A stretch of 32,245 bases of DNA from Vicinamibacterales bacterium. GTDB taxonomy: Bacteria; Acidobacteriota; Vicinamibacteria; Vicinamibacterales; CAVVIG01. Numbering within the stretch: position 1 is the first letter of the stretch; each line of letters opens with the position of its first letter. Both the position numbers and the translations under genes were made by a program. Of this stretch, positions 5,947-10,922 are shown piece by piece. Location: positions 1 to 32,245 of the forward strand of contig JANWLS010000124.1 in the NCBI GenBank assembly GCA_025450765.1. Direction: 5' to 3'. A model generated the notes under the pieces. That model did not search any database. It saw nothing but the letters and a program-made list of their open reading frames with translations, and had not been told where the DNA came from.

Positions 5947-7038
5947 ATGAAAAAGATGAGGGTCGGCGTGTTGTACGGTGGCCGATCGGGCGAGCACGAG
6001 ATCTCGCTCGCCTCGGCGGCGGCGGTCATCGCTCACCTCGATCCCGCGCGATACGAAACGGTCCCGATCCGGATCGAGAAGGACGGACGATGGCGAGTCG
6101 CCGCGCGGCCGCCTGAATCGATCAAGGCGAGCGAGGTGATCGAGGCCTCGCGCGGCGCGACGGCTCGCACGGAGATCGCCGAGCGCGAAGCCTACCTCGC
6201 GCCCTGTCCGGGAGACACGACGTTCCACCTCGACGTGATGTTTCCCGTGCTCCACGGTCCATACGGCGAGGACGGCACCGTGCAGGGGCTGCTCGAGCTC
6301 GCCGACGTGCCGTATGTCGGCGCCGGCGTGCTCGGATCGGCCGTCGGCATGGACAAGGCGGCGATGAAGCTCGTCTTCGCCGCAAGCGGCCTCCCCATCG
6401 TCAAACACGAGACCGTGCTGCGCCGCGACTGGCTGACCGATACGCGCGGGCTGGTGAAAGGGCTGATCGCCTCGCTCGGGCTGCCGGTGTTCGTGAAGCC
6501 GGCGAACCTCGGCTCGAGCGTCGGCATCTCGAAGGTGAAAACCGAGGACCAGCTCGCGCCCGCGATGGACCTGGCGGCCGGCTTCGATCGCAAGATCGTG
6601 ATCGAAGCGGCCGTGCCGAACGCGCGCGAGATCGAATGCGGCGTGCTCGGCAACGATCGCCCCAACGCCTCCATCCCGGGCGAGATCCGTCCGCCGGCCA
6701 CGCGCGAGTTCTACGACTACGAGGCGAAGTACCTGGACGAGGCATCGGAGACGATCATTCCCGCGCCGCTCTCACCGGCGCAGGTGGTCGAGGTTCAGCG
6801 CCTGGCCGTCGCCGCCTTTCGCGCGATCGATGCGGCCGGCTTCGCACGCGTCGACTTTCTCCTCAACAGGCAGACGGGCGATCTTTACCTCAACGAGGTG
6901 AACACGATCCCCGGCTTCACCACGATCAGCATGTTCCCGAAACTGTGGGAGGCGAGCGGCCTCTGCTACAGCGAGCTGCTCGATCGCCTCATCGAGCTCG
7001 CACTCGAACGTCACGCCGAGAAGCAAGAACTGAAGTGA
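5947..7038 (+). CDS. ddl: D-alanine--D-alanine ligase
   Basis: Ddl makes the D-Ala-D-Ala dipeptide for peptidoglycan in an ATP-grasp reaction in the cytoplasm. The 363-residue protein begins with the GGRSGEHEISLAS nucleotide-fold motif and has FPVLHGPYGEDGTVQGLLEL, PVFVKPANLGSSVGISKV (ATP-grasp loop), EIECGVLGN, and the metal-binding DFLLNRQTGDLYLNEVNTIPGFT near the C-terminus. The start is ATG 5947, preceded by GGAGAGA at 5931-5937; an upstream in-frame GTG at 5929 overlaps that site and is not preferred. It stands alone, divergent from tgt. An imperfect hairpin (7036-7047 with 7066-7075) overlaps the stop codon but lacks a T tract. Confidence 0.96.
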   Translation: MKKMRVGVLYGGRSGEHEISLASAAAVIAHLDPARYETVPIRIEKDGRWRVAARPPESIKASEVIEASRGATARTEIAEREAYLAPCPGDTTFHLDVMFPVLHGPYGEDGTVQGLLELADVPYVGAGVLGSAVGMDKAAMKLVFAASGLPIVKHETVLRRDWLTDTRGLVKGLIASLGLPVFVKPANLGSSVGISKVKTEDQLAPAMDLAAGFDRKIVIEAAVPNAREIECGVLGNDRPNASIPGEIRPPATREFYDYEAKYLDEASETIIPAPLSPAQVVEVQRLAVAAFRAIDAAGFARVDFLLNRQTGDLYLNEVNTIPGFTTISMFPKLWEASGLCYSELLDRLIELALERHAEKQELK

Positions 7039-7168
7039 TCGCGCATCCGTGCCGAAAAGATCGGTGATGCGATCAGTCGATGTCGTGCACGCGCGCCGCT
7101 CGCACGCGATCATCGCGCGCGACGGCCAATCGAGTGCGGCGATTTTTGACATTTACTGCACTTTGTGC

Positions 7169-7196
7169 TTGACATCTTCTTTTTCTCATCGATAAT
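7169..7196 (+). promoter_or_regulatory. Sigma70-type promoter of the microprotein locus
   Basis: A perfect TTGACA (7169-7174) is followed after 16 nt by GATAAT (7191-7196), five of six matches to the -10 consensus. The surrounding stretch is T-rich and much lower in GC than its neighbours. A second TTGACA lies at 7146-7151. It is the best-matching housekeeping promoter in the window and points at the tiny basic genes downstream, with a predicted leader of about 90 nt. Confidence 0.8.
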
Positions 7197-7202
7197 CTAC
7201 AT

Positions 7203-7291
7203 CTTGTATGAGGGTGGTGTGCTCAGGCCACCCGTAGTGACGCCTCGGTTCCGGTTGTAAACCCTGGGCATCCTACCCAACAGGAGGAAGA
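7203..7291 (+). promoter_or_regulatory. Structured leader of the first microprotein gene
   Basis: The predicted 5' leader can form GGGTGG/CCACCC (7212-7217 with 7228-7233, 10-nt loop) and a small GGG-CATCCTA-CCC hairpin just before the ribosome site AGGAGG (7282-7287). It also contains CGGTTCCGG (7245-7253). Three similar pieces recur before the second microprotein gene. It matches no riboswitch class that I recognise; a regulatory role is inferred only from the repeated structure. Confidence 0.45.
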
Positions 7292-7339
7292 ATGGCGAAG
7301 AAAGCCGCCGGTAAGAAAAAGGGCGCCAAGAAGCGCTAA
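7292..7339 (+). CDS. Lysine-rich 15-residue microprotein, copy 1
   Basis: The gene encodes MAKKAAGKKKGAKKR, with 8 basic residues among 15 and otherwise only Ala, Gly and the initial Met. A strong AGGAGG ribosome site (7282-7287) sits 4 nt before the ATG, and a consensus promoter lies about 100 nt upstream. A near-identical second copy follows 201 nt later. The composition recalls the Lys/Ala tails of histone H1-like and ribosomal proteins, so nucleic-acid binding is a natural guess. No domain is present and no family is recognised. The good ribosome site, promoter, duplication and terminator argue that it is translated; its function is unknown. Confidence 0.6.
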   Translation: MAKKAAGKKKGAKKR

Positions 7340-7540
7340 GCCGGCCACCAACCGGTTCCGGGGGTGGTCAGGCCGACACCCCTATTGTGTGTGCTGCATC
7401 CTCGCAGCGGAGTTTTGAGGATGCCCGATGCGCAGAGTCTCGACACCGACGGGTCGGCGTGCCAGGCGGCAGCGGCCCGAGGTAGCGAGCCAGACTCTCG
7501 CACTCGTTCAACCAAGCCAATGAAGGGGGGTATTCAGCGA
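7340..7540 (+). promoter_or_regulatory. Intercistronic region with repeated hairpin
   Basis: This 201-nt spacer between the two microprotein genes repeats pieces of the first leader: CGGTTCCGG (7353-7361), a GGGGTG/CACCCC hairpin with a 10-nt loop (7361-7366 with 7377-7382), and a GCATCCT-containing loop in the hairpin GCTGC-ATCCTC-GCAGC (7391-7406). No good promoter is visible inside, so it probably belongs to one transcript from 7169. The rest shows no clear feature. Confidence 0.4.
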
Positions 7541-7594
7541 ATGGCCAAGAAAGCCAAGGGCGGCAAGAAGAAGGCTGGCGCCAAGAAGCGGTAA
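7541..7594 (+). CDS. Lysine-rich 17-residue microprotein, copy 2
   Basis: The gene encodes MAKKAKGGKKKAGAKKR, which aligns with copy 1 along its whole length apart from two extra residues. A purine run AAGGGGGG (7523-7530) lies 10 nt before the ATG and can serve as a ribosome site. A longer in-frame start at 7520 would add MKGGIQR but would place the start inside that purine run, so 7541 is preferred. The stop is followed 17 nt later by a strong terminator. Like copy 1 it is almost wholly Lys/Arg, Ala and Gly and is likely to bind RNA, DNA or another acidic partner. That role is inference from charge alone. Confidence 0.6.
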   Translation: MAKKAKGGKKKAGAKKR

Positions 7595-7611
7595 GCCTTC
7601 ACCGCCAAGAT

Positions 7612-7638
7612 AAAGGGGGCGGCGGTCGCCCCCTTTTT
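7612..7638 (+). terminator. Intrinsic terminator after the microprotein genes
   Basis: A perfect 10-bp stem (AAAGGGGGCG at 7612-7621, CGCCCCCTTT at 7627-7636) with a 5-nt loop runs into a T tract (7634-7638). It ends the microprotein transcript. The A run on its left side could also let it work, more weakly, for the convergent HEAT/cyclophilin gene that ends at 7660. Confidence 0.9.
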
Positions 7639-7659
7639 ACTGTACCGACCTCGTGTCGA

Positions 7660-9768
7660 TCACTCGCCCGACATTTCTTTTCCGTCCCAGACGCGGATCC
7701 GCGTAATCACATCCCACGGTTCGATCTTCGAGACCACGTCCAGACCGGAGACGACGCGGCCGACCACGGTATAGCCGGCGTCGAGGCGCGGCTGCGGCGA
7801 CGTCGTGATGAAGAACTGACTGCCGCCCGTATCGCGCCAGTCGAGCGCGATGCCCACGGTGCCCGGTGCGTACATCCGCTCGTTCAGCTCATCACGAATC
7901 GTGAACCCCGGACCGCCGTCGCCGTCGCCGCGCGGGTCGCCATCCTGCACGACGAAATCCGGCACCACCCGATGAACGGGCACGTGATCGAAGAACCCGC
8001 GCCGGGCGAGCTGCATCAGCGTCTCGCTGGTGATCGGCGCATCAATCACCGCCAGCTCGACGACGATGGTCCCTTTCGCGGTATCGATGAAGAGCTCGGG
8101 CGAGACGGTCGGCGCGACGAGCGAGGGCTCCTGGTAATAGGAATCGGGATGGGTGGTCGGCGCCGGACGAATCGTCTGCCCCGCGTGCGTGGCCGGATCG
8201 ATCGCCTTGAGCAGGTCGGCCGCTTTCACGCGCACCGCCCAATCCGGATCGGCGAGCGCCTTCGTGAGCGTCGGCTGCGCCGCCGAGCCGCCGTATCCGG
8301 AGAGCGCCTGGAGCGCCGCGGCGCGCGCGACGTAGGTTGAATCCTTGAGCCCCCGCGCGTAGGCCTCTTCGAGCGCCGGAGCGGCGTCGGCCGGCTTCAC
8401 ATCCCCCAGGTCCTGTGCCGCCGCCTTGCGGATGAACGGATCGGAGCTCTTCAGCTTCTCCAGCAGGAGCGGCTCGATGTCCGGTGCGCGCAGCTTCGTC
8501 AGCGCGGCGAGCACCGCCGGCACGACGCGGCTGTCCGGATCGTCGAGCATCTGGTGGAGCCGCGTCCCGACCTGATCGAGCGGGAACCGCGTCAGCGTCC
8601 CGGCGAGCGCGGCGCGCACGCTCCAATGCGGGTCGGGATCGAGTCCGGAGAGGATCAGCAGGAAATCCTGCGGGTTCACCTGAGCCACCGCCTCGATGGC
8701 GGCTGCGCGGATGGCCGGCGACGGATCGGACACGAGGTCGAGCAGGCGATCCGCCGTCCCCGGTGCATGCAATGCGCCGAGCGCCTCCACGGCTTCGATC
8801 CGGAGGCCGTGCGGCGTGTGGGGCGCGAGCAGCGGCAGCAGCACCGGAACCGCACGCGCGTCGCCGATCTCGCCGAGCGATCGGACGGCTTCCAGCGCGG
8901 GCGGCAGGCTGCGATCCGCCGCTTTCACCATCGCGATCAGCACATCGACCGCCTGCTTGTCGCGAAGCGCACCGAGCCCGCGCGCGCTGAACGCCGGCGT
9001 CCACGTGCCCCGGGCCTGCGCCAGTGTCAGCAGCGCCGGCGCCGCGCGTCGATCGTTCAACCACTGGAGCGCGTAGGCGACGGGCCACCAGCTGACGCGC
9101 GGCTGCCCGCCTTGATCGAGCACCGCCGATGCCATCGCGTCCCACGCGTGCAGGCGCGCCAACGCGGAGATGCCGAGGCGGAAGACGCCCGCGGCCGTGC
9201 CTCGATCCTCCCCCATGTCGTCGATGGGCGTGCTCGCCAGCGCACCGCTCTGCACGATGCCGGACACCAGCGCGCCGATCGGCGCGGCGCCCTGCTGGTC
9301 CCCGATGAGCCCGAGCGCTTCCGCCGCGCTCCCCTGGACGAGCCGCGATGAGTCTTTCAGCGCCTGCACGAGCGACCCCACGGCCGACCTGTCGCCAACC
9401 AGCCCGAGTGCAAAGGCGGCCATCTGCCGCACCTCGGGCTCAGGATCGGACAAGGCGCGTTCGAGCGGGGCCACGCCGTCGCCCAGGCGGACGCGCCCGA
9501 TCGCGAGCGCCGCCCGCCGCCGGATGTGGGCGGCCGGATCGTGCAGGAGGGCGACCAGATCGGGGCCCGACGGCTGGCGCAGCATCCGCTGGTCTTCGAG
9601 CTGGAGAATCCAGCCCACTTTCTGCGCATCGGTGACGGGCGGCGCCGGCGCGACCGCCGGCCGTGGCGGCTTGCACGCGACGATCACCGCGCCTGCCAGC
9701 AGGCCGACGATGGTCGCCACGAAGGTTGGGAACGCGCGTGTCGCGCGACGTGGACGTGGTGCAGTCAT
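7660..9768 (-). CDS. HEAT-repeat lipoprotein with C-terminal cyclophilin domain
   Basis: The 702-residue product joins a long HEAT-repeat solenoid (about residues 55-520) to a peptidyl-prolyl cis-trans isomerase domain (about 556-702). The N-terminus carries a membrane signal ending in the lipobox-like IVAC at Cys32, so it is probably a lipid-anchored envelope protein. The solenoid shows repeated AAHIRRRAALAIGRV- and EPEVRQMAAFALGLV-type helices. The cyclophilin part keeps HRVVPDFVVQDGDP (Arg about 600) and GGSQFFIT (Gln about 651), so it may be active, although the family Trp for cyclosporin is not obvious. The start is ATG 9768, overlapping the stop of the upstream gene as ATGA; the much longer in-frame extension overlaps that gene and is rejected. 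It may be an envelope folding factor that selects clients through the solenoid (inference). Confidence 0.85.
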   Translation of the reverse strand: MTAPRPRRATRAFPTFVATIVGLLAGAVIVACKPPRPAVAPAPPVTDAQKVGWILQLEDQRMLRQPSGPDLVALLHDPAAHIRRRAALAIGRVRLGDGVAPLERALSDPEPEVRQMAAFALGLVGDRSAVGSLVQALKDSSRLVQGSAAEALGLIGDQQGAAPIGALVSGIVQSGALASTPIDDMGEDRGTAAGVFRLGISALARLHAWDAMASAVLDQGGQPRVSWWPVAYALQWLNDRRAAPALLTLAQARGTWTPAFSARGLGALRDKQAVDVLIAMVKAADRSLPPALEAVRSLGEIGDARAVPVLLPLLAPHTPHGLRIEAVEALGALHAPGTADRLLDLVSDPSPAIRAAAIEAVAQVNPQDFLLILSGLDPDPHWSVRAALAGTLTRFPLDQVGTRLHQMLDDPDSRVVPAVLAALTKLRAPDIEPLLLEKLKSSDPFIRKAAAQDLGDVKPADAAPALEEAYARGLKDSTYVARAAALQALSGYGGSAAQPTLTKALADPDWAVRVKAADLLKAIDPATHAGQTIRPAPTTHPDSYYQEPSLVAPTVSPELFIDTAKGTIVVELAVIDAPITSETLMQLARRGFFDHVPVHRVVPDFVVQDGDPRGDGDGGPGFTIRDELNERMYAPGTVGIALDWRDTGGSQFFITTSPQPRLDAGYTVVGRVVSGLDVVSKIEPWDVITRIRVWDGKEMSGE

Positions 9769-10922
9769 GGCGCCGGCTCGGTTGCCCGCGAGGAAACGAC
9801 CGCACCGGCTGCCGTATCGCACACGAGCAATCGTTCGGTCGCCTGCTCCACCCGCTCGGGCACAATCGTGACACCAATCCCCGGGCCTTCGCCGGGAACG
9901 GCGATCGTGCCGTCGCTCCGTACCTCGATCGGGGGCTCGATCAGATCCGGCACGTAATACCGACGGCTCGCCGCCACGTCGCCGGGCAGCGTGAAGTTGG
10001 GCAGGGTCGAAAGGTGAATGTTGTGGGCGCGCCCGATGCCGGACTCGAGCATGCCGCCGTGCCACACCGGAATGCCGTGGGCCGCGCACAGGTCGTGCAG
10101 CGCGATCGACTCGCGGAAGCCGCCCATCCGTCCGGGCTTGACGTTGATGATGCGGCAGGCGCGCATCGCGATCGCCTCTTCGGCGATGTGGACGCTCTTG
10201 ATCGATTCGTCGAGGCAGATGGGGGTGCGCAGCTGCGCCTGCAGCGCCGCGTGATCGCGCACGTCATCTTCGTCGAGCGGCTGCTCGATCATCATCAGGT
10301 CGAAGCCGTCCAGCGCCTTCAGGCGCGGGGCATCGCCCGGCACGTACGCCGCATTGGCGTCCACCATCAGGGGCACCGGGCCGAAGCGGCGCCGGATCAT
10401 CTCCACGGCTTCCCGGTCCCAGCCCGGCTTCACCTTGATCTTGATGCGGCGATAGCCCGCCGCGAGCTCCTTCTCGACACGCTCGGCGAGATCGTCGAGT
10501 GAGTCCTGGATGCCGATCGAGACACCCGAGGCGATCGGCTGTCCGTTTCCGCCGAGCACGCGCCACAGCGGCTCGCCCCGCAGCCTGGCGTAGAGATCCC
10601 AGGCCGCCATCTCGAGCCCGGCCTTGGCCATGTTGTGACCGCGGACATCGCTCAGCGCCGGATAGATTTCGCGTGGATGTGCGATCTCCAGGCCGAGCAC
10701 GCGGGGCACCAGGAAACGGCTGAGGATGTGCCAGGAAGTTTCGGTGGTCTCGGGACTGTAGAACGGCGTCTGATCGGCGACGCATTCGCCGTATCCGACG
10801 ACCCCGCCGGCCTCGGCCCGGACGAGCACGAACGTGCGATCGTAGGACCGGCCGAAGCTCGTTTCGAAGAACCGCACCAGGGGCAGACGAAGGAGCCGCA
10901 GCTCCACCCGCTCGATTTTCAC
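9765..10922 (-). CDS. menC: o-Succinylbenzoate synthase / N-acylamino-acid racemase (enolase superfamily)
   Basis: The 385-residue protein belongs to the MenC/NAAAR branch of the enolase superfamily. It has RIKIKVKPGWD (the catalytic KxK), VPLMVDANAAY, LMMIEQPL and CLDESI (three metal ligands), NVKPGRMGG (second catalytic Lys) and the branch-specific WHGGMLESGIGRAHN. MenC members dehydrate SHCHC to o-succinylbenzoate in menaquinone synthesis, but close relatives racemise N-acylamino acids. No other men gene lies nearby, so the substrate is open. The start chosen is GTG 10922, where homology begins at KIERVEL. An extended -10 (TGCTATCAT, with TATCAT at 10938-10933) lies 10 nt upstream with no ribosome site, as for a nearly leaderless mRNA. 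Confidence 0.85.
   Translation of the reverse strand: MKIERVELRLLRLPLVRFFETSFGRSYDRTFVLVRAEAGGVVGYGECVADQTPFYSPETTETSWHILSRFLVPRVLGLEIAHPREIYPALSDVRGHNMAKAGLEMAAWDLYARLRGEPLWRVLGGNGQPIASGVSIGIQDSLDDLAERVEKELAAGYRRIKIKVKPGWDREAVEMIRRRFGPVPLMVDANAAYVPGDAPRLKALDGFDLMMIEQPLDEDDVRDHAALQAQLRTPICLDESIKSVHIAEEAIAMRACRIINVKPGRMGGFRESIALHDLCAAHGIPVWHGGMLESGIGRAHNIHLSTLPNFTLPGDVAASRRYYVPDLIEPPIEVRSDGTIAVPGEGPGIGVTIVPERVEQATERLLVCDTAAGAVVSSRATEPAP

Follow-up and report, generated by a model that had tools for sequence, protein, structure and literature searches.

Actinobacterial HU proteins of the HupB type carry a lysine-rich C-terminal tail. A 32,245-nucleotide stretch of DNA from a Vicinamibacterales bacterium of the Acidobacteriota (contig JANWLS010000124.1, positions 1 to 32,245 of the forward strand; hereafter the window), taken from a 3.3 Mb metagenome-assembled genome of 239 contigs, contains an unannotated pair of open reading frames (ORFs) of just 15 and 17 codons. 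Their near-identical, strongly positive products resemble such a tail in composition, with the difference that these microproteins are free-standing. The HU proteins recovered from the genomes analysed here lacked long lysine tails.

Other described systems share some of the features of this locus. Pseudomonas AlgP, an H1-like protein with C-terminal KPAA repeats, binds both DNA and polyphosphate granules (PMC9239181), indicating that H1-like tails are capable of such a role. Like AlgP and chlamydial Hc2 (PF07382, NF038052), the microproteins are rich in lysine and alanine, disordered and devoid of acidic residues, and their long relatives share the K/A/P-rich low-complexity repeats of these proteins. 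Unlike Hc2 and AlgP, they are mostly 14-17 amino acids (aa) long, contain no other domain, occur as tandem near-identical copies behind structured leaders and score below the curated cut-offs; for this last reason they were not assigned to Hc2/AlgP, and a composition of the H1-tail kind is itself already known. Ribosomal microproteins and ribosomal-protein genes with autogenous pseudoknot leaders (bTHX, eL41; r-protein leaders) are comparable in combining a tiny, basic product with a strong promoter and a pseudoknot close to the Shine-Dalgarno (SD) sequence. In contrast to these, the length and residue order of the present microproteins are free, they have no known homologue, and an association with the ribosome would be hypothetical. 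The locus also recalls the leader peptides of amino-acid attenuators, where a short ORF rich in one amino acid is followed by an intrinsic terminator, but here there is no biosynthetic gene downstream and the ORFs are conserved as protein. No published work on the locus was found in the literature searched, and no free-standing members of 14-17 aa that form matched pairs behind two unclassified structured leaders turned up in the libraries and literature searched.

Two conserved lysine-rich microprotein genes

The two ORFs and their ribosome binding sites are located as follows.

7292 to 7339, forward strand: ORF1, MAKKAAGKKKGAKKR (15 aa)
7541 to 7594, forward strand: ORF2, MAKKAKGGKKKAGAKKR (17 aa)
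7282 to 7289, forward strand: SD sequence of ORF1, AGGAGGAA; an AGGAGG-type site is kept in the alignment
7522 to 7530, forward strand: SD sequence of ORF2, GAAGGGGGG, an unusual G-run; GA.. and most of the next G-run are invariant across 39 loci

Codons with a single difference between relatives were strongly biased towards synonymous change: 120 synonymous against 58 nonsynonymous for ORF1 (22 sequences; neutral synonymous fraction 0.22) and 593 against 43 for ORF2 (39 sequences; ~22% synonymous expected without selection), counts that come from non-independent sequence pairs and are not P-values, although the bias is very large. The reading frame was kept in every recovered ORF, from 14 to 65 codons, with lengths differing by whole codons only. 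Matches to the region were obtained in 57 of 60 related genomes and in 41 of 42 genera. The conservation and the codon statistics exclude chance or artefact, and they indicate that both ORFs are real genes with purifying selection acting on the protein. An earlier reading made from the sequence alone (hereafter the sequence-only reading) had proposed duplicated genes of 15 and 17 codons, unlikely to be there by chance and each with its own ribosome site; genes and sites are confirmed here. It had suggested looking for synonymous bias, which was found, and it had named a lack of conservation in close relatives and frame-breaking indels as signs of a spurious prediction; the peptides turned out to be conserved throughout the order, and no such indel was seen among the recovered ORFs.

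A degenerate ORF pattern (ATGGCNAARAAR...AARAARCGNTA) matched 26 of 396 Acidobacteriota genomes, all from one order, and the listed matches were ORFs of this microprotein family. The pattern was not found in four genomes from the other families of the class, nor in ~350 genomes from the remainder of the phylum, and among 31 genomes of various phyla (reached via named loci) the single match carried an in-frame stop. As far as searched, the family appears to be limited to one Acidobacteriota order of soil and groundwater bacteria, across which the locus is conserved.

The 93 distinct peptides (14-65 aa) consisted of 48% K and 30% A, lacked D, E, L, I, F, W and Y entirely, and ended in KKR or KKK in 89 cases. 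Because a MAK start and a lower limit on K content had been set when searching for the peptides, these two features carry no independent weight. Family f8 has, instead of the pair, a single ORF of 35-65 aa preceded by the same pseudoknot leader (e.g. MAKKAAAKKAVKKKVVKKPAAKKPAAKKPAVKKPAAKKAAAKKAVKKTVKKAVKKAAAKKGAKKR), with a histone-H1-tail-like composition and AKK, PAKK and TKK repeats. The 65-aa member found its best library matches among histone H1-like Hc2 models, matching PF07382 HC2 with an E value of 0.0015 (19.1 bits; cut-off 40) and NF038052 with an E value of 0.00094 (19.4 bits; cut-off 135), and none of the members searched (26-65 aa) reached a curated cut-off in Pfam or NCBIfam. The total of K and R residues per locus was alike in both arrangements, with a mean of 19.8 for pairs and 17-30 for single long ORFs.

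The two-ORF state recurs in most families of the order, and in many genera ORF2 was found alone together with its terminator (T2, below). Because the pair is widespread and the two genes have different, separately conserved leaders, the duplication is old. Within a locus the edit distance between the ORF1 and ORF2 peptides averaged 3.8, compared with 7.4 for shuffled pairings, none of the 2000 shuffles giving so low a value, and the two peptides were identical in 17 of 57 loci, where 1.06 were expected and shuffles gave at most 6. In these 17 loci 3 to 8 of the 15-18 codons differed between the copies, in one case with AGT and TCG encoding the same serine. Either gene conversion followed by synonymous drift or selection for matching would explain the matched peptides.

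Two individual loci depart from the common arrangement. At L157 (G053, family f6; 841-1377, with the locus on the minus strand) the pair is succeeded by another lysine-rich microprotein ORF (MAKKAAKKAAKKPAKKTAKKR), the third at this locus. At L222 (G052, family f5) ORF2 encodes an H1-like protein of 52 aa whose C-terminus is KKGCKAC instead of the usual KKR, possibly the outcome of a recent frame change or fusion.

Promoter, leader RNAs and terminators

The expression signals around the two ORFs were located as follows.

7143 to 7168, forward strand: conserved element TTTTTGAC ... TTTGTGC of the promoter, adjoining the -35 box on its upstream side; near-invariant across 65 distinct loci
7169 to 7196, forward strand: sigma70-type promoter TTGACA-16-GATAAT, with 11 of 12 consensus bases
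7200 to 7210, forward strand: CATCTnGTATG around the expected transcript start; near-invariant in loci with leader 1
7211 to 7271, forward strand: leader RNA 1, an H-type pseudoknot supported by covariation on 64 leaders
7211 to 7217 with 7228 to 7234, forward strand: helix P1 of leader 1; the outermost pair is unformed in this genome
7218 to 7220, forward strand: first loop of leader 1, 3 nucleotides
7221 to 7227 (GCTCAGG) with 7263 to 7269 (CCTGGGC), forward strand: helix P2 of leader 1
7360 to 7390, forward strand: terminator T1, located between the two ORFs (GGGGGTGGTCAGGCCGACACCCC followed by a weak U-tract), with the hairpin at 7360 to 7382
7428 to 7513, forward strand: leader RNA 2, centred on GTGCCAGGCGGCAG at 7459 to 7472; the motif is conserved and the closing stems covary in relatives
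7612 to 7638, forward strand: terminator T2 (AAAGGGGGCGGCGGTCGCCCCCTTTTT), -18.7 kcal/mol, z -2.9

In a scan of positions 6700-8200 the TTGACA-16-GATAAT sequence was the sole promoter-like site (0.2 expected), and no separate promoter for ORF2 was detected in the window. The spacer was 16 in all 65 loci found by motif, the consensus TTTTT..(N)..TTgTGC lay nearly invariant directly 5′ of TTGACA, and the whole arrangement TTTTTGAC...TTTGTGC-TTGACA-16-CATAATCTACATCTnGTATGA was almost without variation. The extended pattern gave one match per genome in 10 of 11 genomes searched. The position of the transcript start is predicted from spacing. The TTTTTGAC and TTTGTGC elements could be a conserved transcription-factor site or an UP-type element. 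The near-perfect sigma70 promoter that the sequence-only reading had placed before ORF1 is confirmed, as is the strong terminator it had placed after ORF2; the structured leaders, T1, the matched evolution of the two peptides and the longer single ORFs are additions to that reading. Its picture of a tandem pair with full expression signals was correct as to the signals, but the two genes are not independent units, having one detectable promoter and different structured leaders.

The first leader was analysed on 64 sequences aligned without structural guidance. Its covariation score was 0.171, compared with 0.120 for shuffled alignments (0 of 500 shuffles as high), and covariation also exceeded all 500 shuffles when 20 sequences were used. 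Double-changed cells numbered 36 versus 16, and 81% of cells were paired, compared with at most 48% in slid versions; P2 was recovered unprompted by RNAalifold. Where the leader immediately precedes an ORF, P1 and P2 interleave with zero nucleotides between the 5′ strand of P2 and the 3′ strand of P1. The interleaving, the 3-nucleotide first loop and the absence of spacer nucleotides define an H-type pseudoknot geometry. P2 was detectable in 41 of 75 leaders adjoining an ORF and in 0 of 20 leaders lacking ORF1, a comparison in which the longer stretch searched in the ORF1-less leaders reduces power but in which mean helix scores also drop (12.3 versus ~17). The failure to detect P2 where ORF1 is absent shows that this helix is tied to ORF1.

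Of 162 genomes of the order, 123 were matched by a covariance model of leader 1, once each except in one genus. In that genus, g40 (family f14), a second copy of the promoter and leader immediately precedes ftsZ, following ftsQ and ftsA (L243 around 1996, G057:C2:92995; L244; L247). The similarity runs almost to the start codon, and the P2-like pairing is apparently altered in step. The ftsZ-linked copy suggests that leader 1 may act as a portable expression element.

A near-leaderless mini-ORF, ATGAGGGTGGTGTGCTCAGGCCACCCGTAG (MRVVCSGHP), lies inside leader 1 at 7208-7237 of the window. Comparison of alignments by eye did not support this reading frame (ATGAGGGTGG...) as a gene: although it ends in a stop in most genomes, it is just ATG-TAG in L008 and runs open into ORF1 in L006. 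As P1 keeps compensatory changes while the mini-ORF breaks, RNA structure better explains the conservation there.

Between the ORFs, 43 of the 57 two-ORF loci had a terminator-like hairpin after ORF1, against 1.2 expected. In the present genome the U-tract of T1 is weak, and its fold was no better than shuffles (z 0.9). Downstream of T1, the GTGCCAGGCGGCAG motif is conserved and usually single-copy per genome. RNAalifold found no structure when given the entire unanchored intergenic region; once the alignment was anchored on GTGCCAGGCGGCAG, a hairpin around the motif emerged whose closing stems covary, with double changes in 4 of 21 pairs in one set of relatives and 6 of 19 in another, figures that describe those two sets of relatives. 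These observations indicate that ORF2 has its own structured leader, different from leader 1. After the last ORF, a simple pattern detected terminator-like sequence in 87 of 100 loci. Searches against Rfam gave zero matches above the gathering score in the window or in the loci of 13 relatives, and the best weak matches were chance-like.

The genes surrounding the pair also recur. At the tested loci the neighbours were secF-secD-yajC-tgt on the minus strand and ddl on the plus strand and, beyond the pair, a peptidyl-prolyl isomerase (PPIase)/HEAT gene and an enolase-superfamily gene (minus), followed by a kinase gene, accD and folC (plus). Some genes went undetected in some loci, and as part of the PPIase query was out of frame, absences of PPIase are uninformative. 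The sequence-only reading had put the pair downstream of ddl; ddl is indeed among the recurring neighbours but is not always adjacent, as an additional stretch of ~1-2 kb separates it from the pair in many genomes. In the window the next gene, 7660-10089, is convergent to the pair and encodes, by inspection, HEAT-like repeats with a PPIase-like C-terminus. With no same-strand gene directly after the pair, and with these neighbours recurring elsewhere, there is no downstream gene for the locus to regulate.

Function of the microproteins

On balance, we favour the explanation that the microproteins are a source of disordered polycation, which would bind polyanions (DNA, RNA or polyphosphate) at a dose set by the leader RNAs. 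A single strong promoter would give a transcript of ~430 nucleotides carrying both near-identical microproteins, with ORF2 presumably expressed through read-through of T1. The peptides would act as charge-dense tails that bind polyanions non-specifically, like a detached H1 C-terminal tail, with nucleoid DNA as the most likely target and RNA or polyphosphate as alternatives. Selection would then act on charge and composition rather than on sequence. The two leaders and the leaky terminator may set the dose, perhaps autogenously through binding of free peptide to its own leader RNA. The sequence-only reading had listed RNA, DNA, polyphosphate and membranes as possible partners. The histone-H1-tail composition of the longer relatives (35-65 aa) strengthens a polyanion role, whereas a membrane target is unlikely, given that no hydrophobic residue larger than A, V or P occurs in the peptides.

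Several points weigh against this explanation. Ordinary HU proteins are present in these genomes, so the peptides are no replacement for HU. The weak Hc2 matches may stem from composition only, the proteins being of low complexity, and a 15-mer with ~9 positive charges may bind anything. Moreover, control by the leaders is a prediction from their conservation, and binding and expression of the peptides are predictions from sequence.

The tiny size and strong basicity of the peptides, their order-wide presence and a pseudoknot leader near the SD sequence would also suit microproteins with a structural role in the ribosome or in some other RNA particle (like bTHX, bL36 and archaeal/eukaryotic eL41), the pseudoknot then being an autogenous repressor site; the strong conserved promoter would fit a product made in stoichiometry with ribosomes. 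We consider this unlikely, since known ribosomal microproteins are sequence-specific whereas the present peptides range from 14 to 65 aa with free residue order. A search of a long member against the PDB revealed no similarity to ribosomal proteins, only to histone H2B tails (E 0.05-0.3), and members of 26-65 aa had no ribosomal-protein match in Pfam, NCBIfam or PDB, the 15- and 17-mers being too short for such searches. It is quite unlikely that the transcript is a dual-function RNA acting mainly as a regulator through its conserved 5′ end, with the peptides secondary. The 5′ end (CATCTnGTATGAGGGTGG) hardly varies, and conservation extends to two structured domains, but constraint on the peptides is at least as strong, and the loss of P2 along with ORF1 ties the structure to the ORF. 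Also at odds with a regulatory RNA are the lack of an Rfam match and the location of the genome's 6S RNA on contig C142 (68.4 bits, cut-off 46.4), which excludes the locus as 6S RNA.

Attenuation, in which ribosomes pausing on the lysine codons of ORF1 would control T1 as in amino-acid biosynthesis operons, draws on the position of a lysine-rich ORF directly before an intrinsic terminator in those 43 of 57 loci. We regard it as very unlikely. The sole gene after T1 encodes the same peptide again and the next gene is convergent, so that the locus has no biosynthetic gene for an attenuator to regulate. Selection extends beyond lysine codons to A, G, T and R positions, and the persistence of ORF2 alone with T2 in many genera is likewise contrary to attenuation. 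A candidate antiterminator, in which AACCGG ahead of T1 would pair with the pseudoknot loop (CCGGTT), seemed promising from the window sequence; it was rejected because 318 of 2000 shuffles did as well across the 47 loci compared.

A more specific form of the dose-controlled polycation explanation, which we consider possible but doubtful, is that the peptides are order-wide minimal 'free histone tails', encoded twice behind two new classes of leader that would sense free peptide or polyanion load and hold the charge dose constant, with the copies kept matched by selection or conversion.

The locus adds conserved bacterial proteins of as few as 14 residues in a major soil phylum, which standard gene callers would be expected to overlook. 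Neither of its leader RNAs matches Rfam, and it is unusual, and open to testing, that two separate copies evolve in so matched a way. With products that range in size from 14 to 65 aa, this single locus is a natural experiment on the minimal sequence needed for a polycationic 'histone-tail' function.
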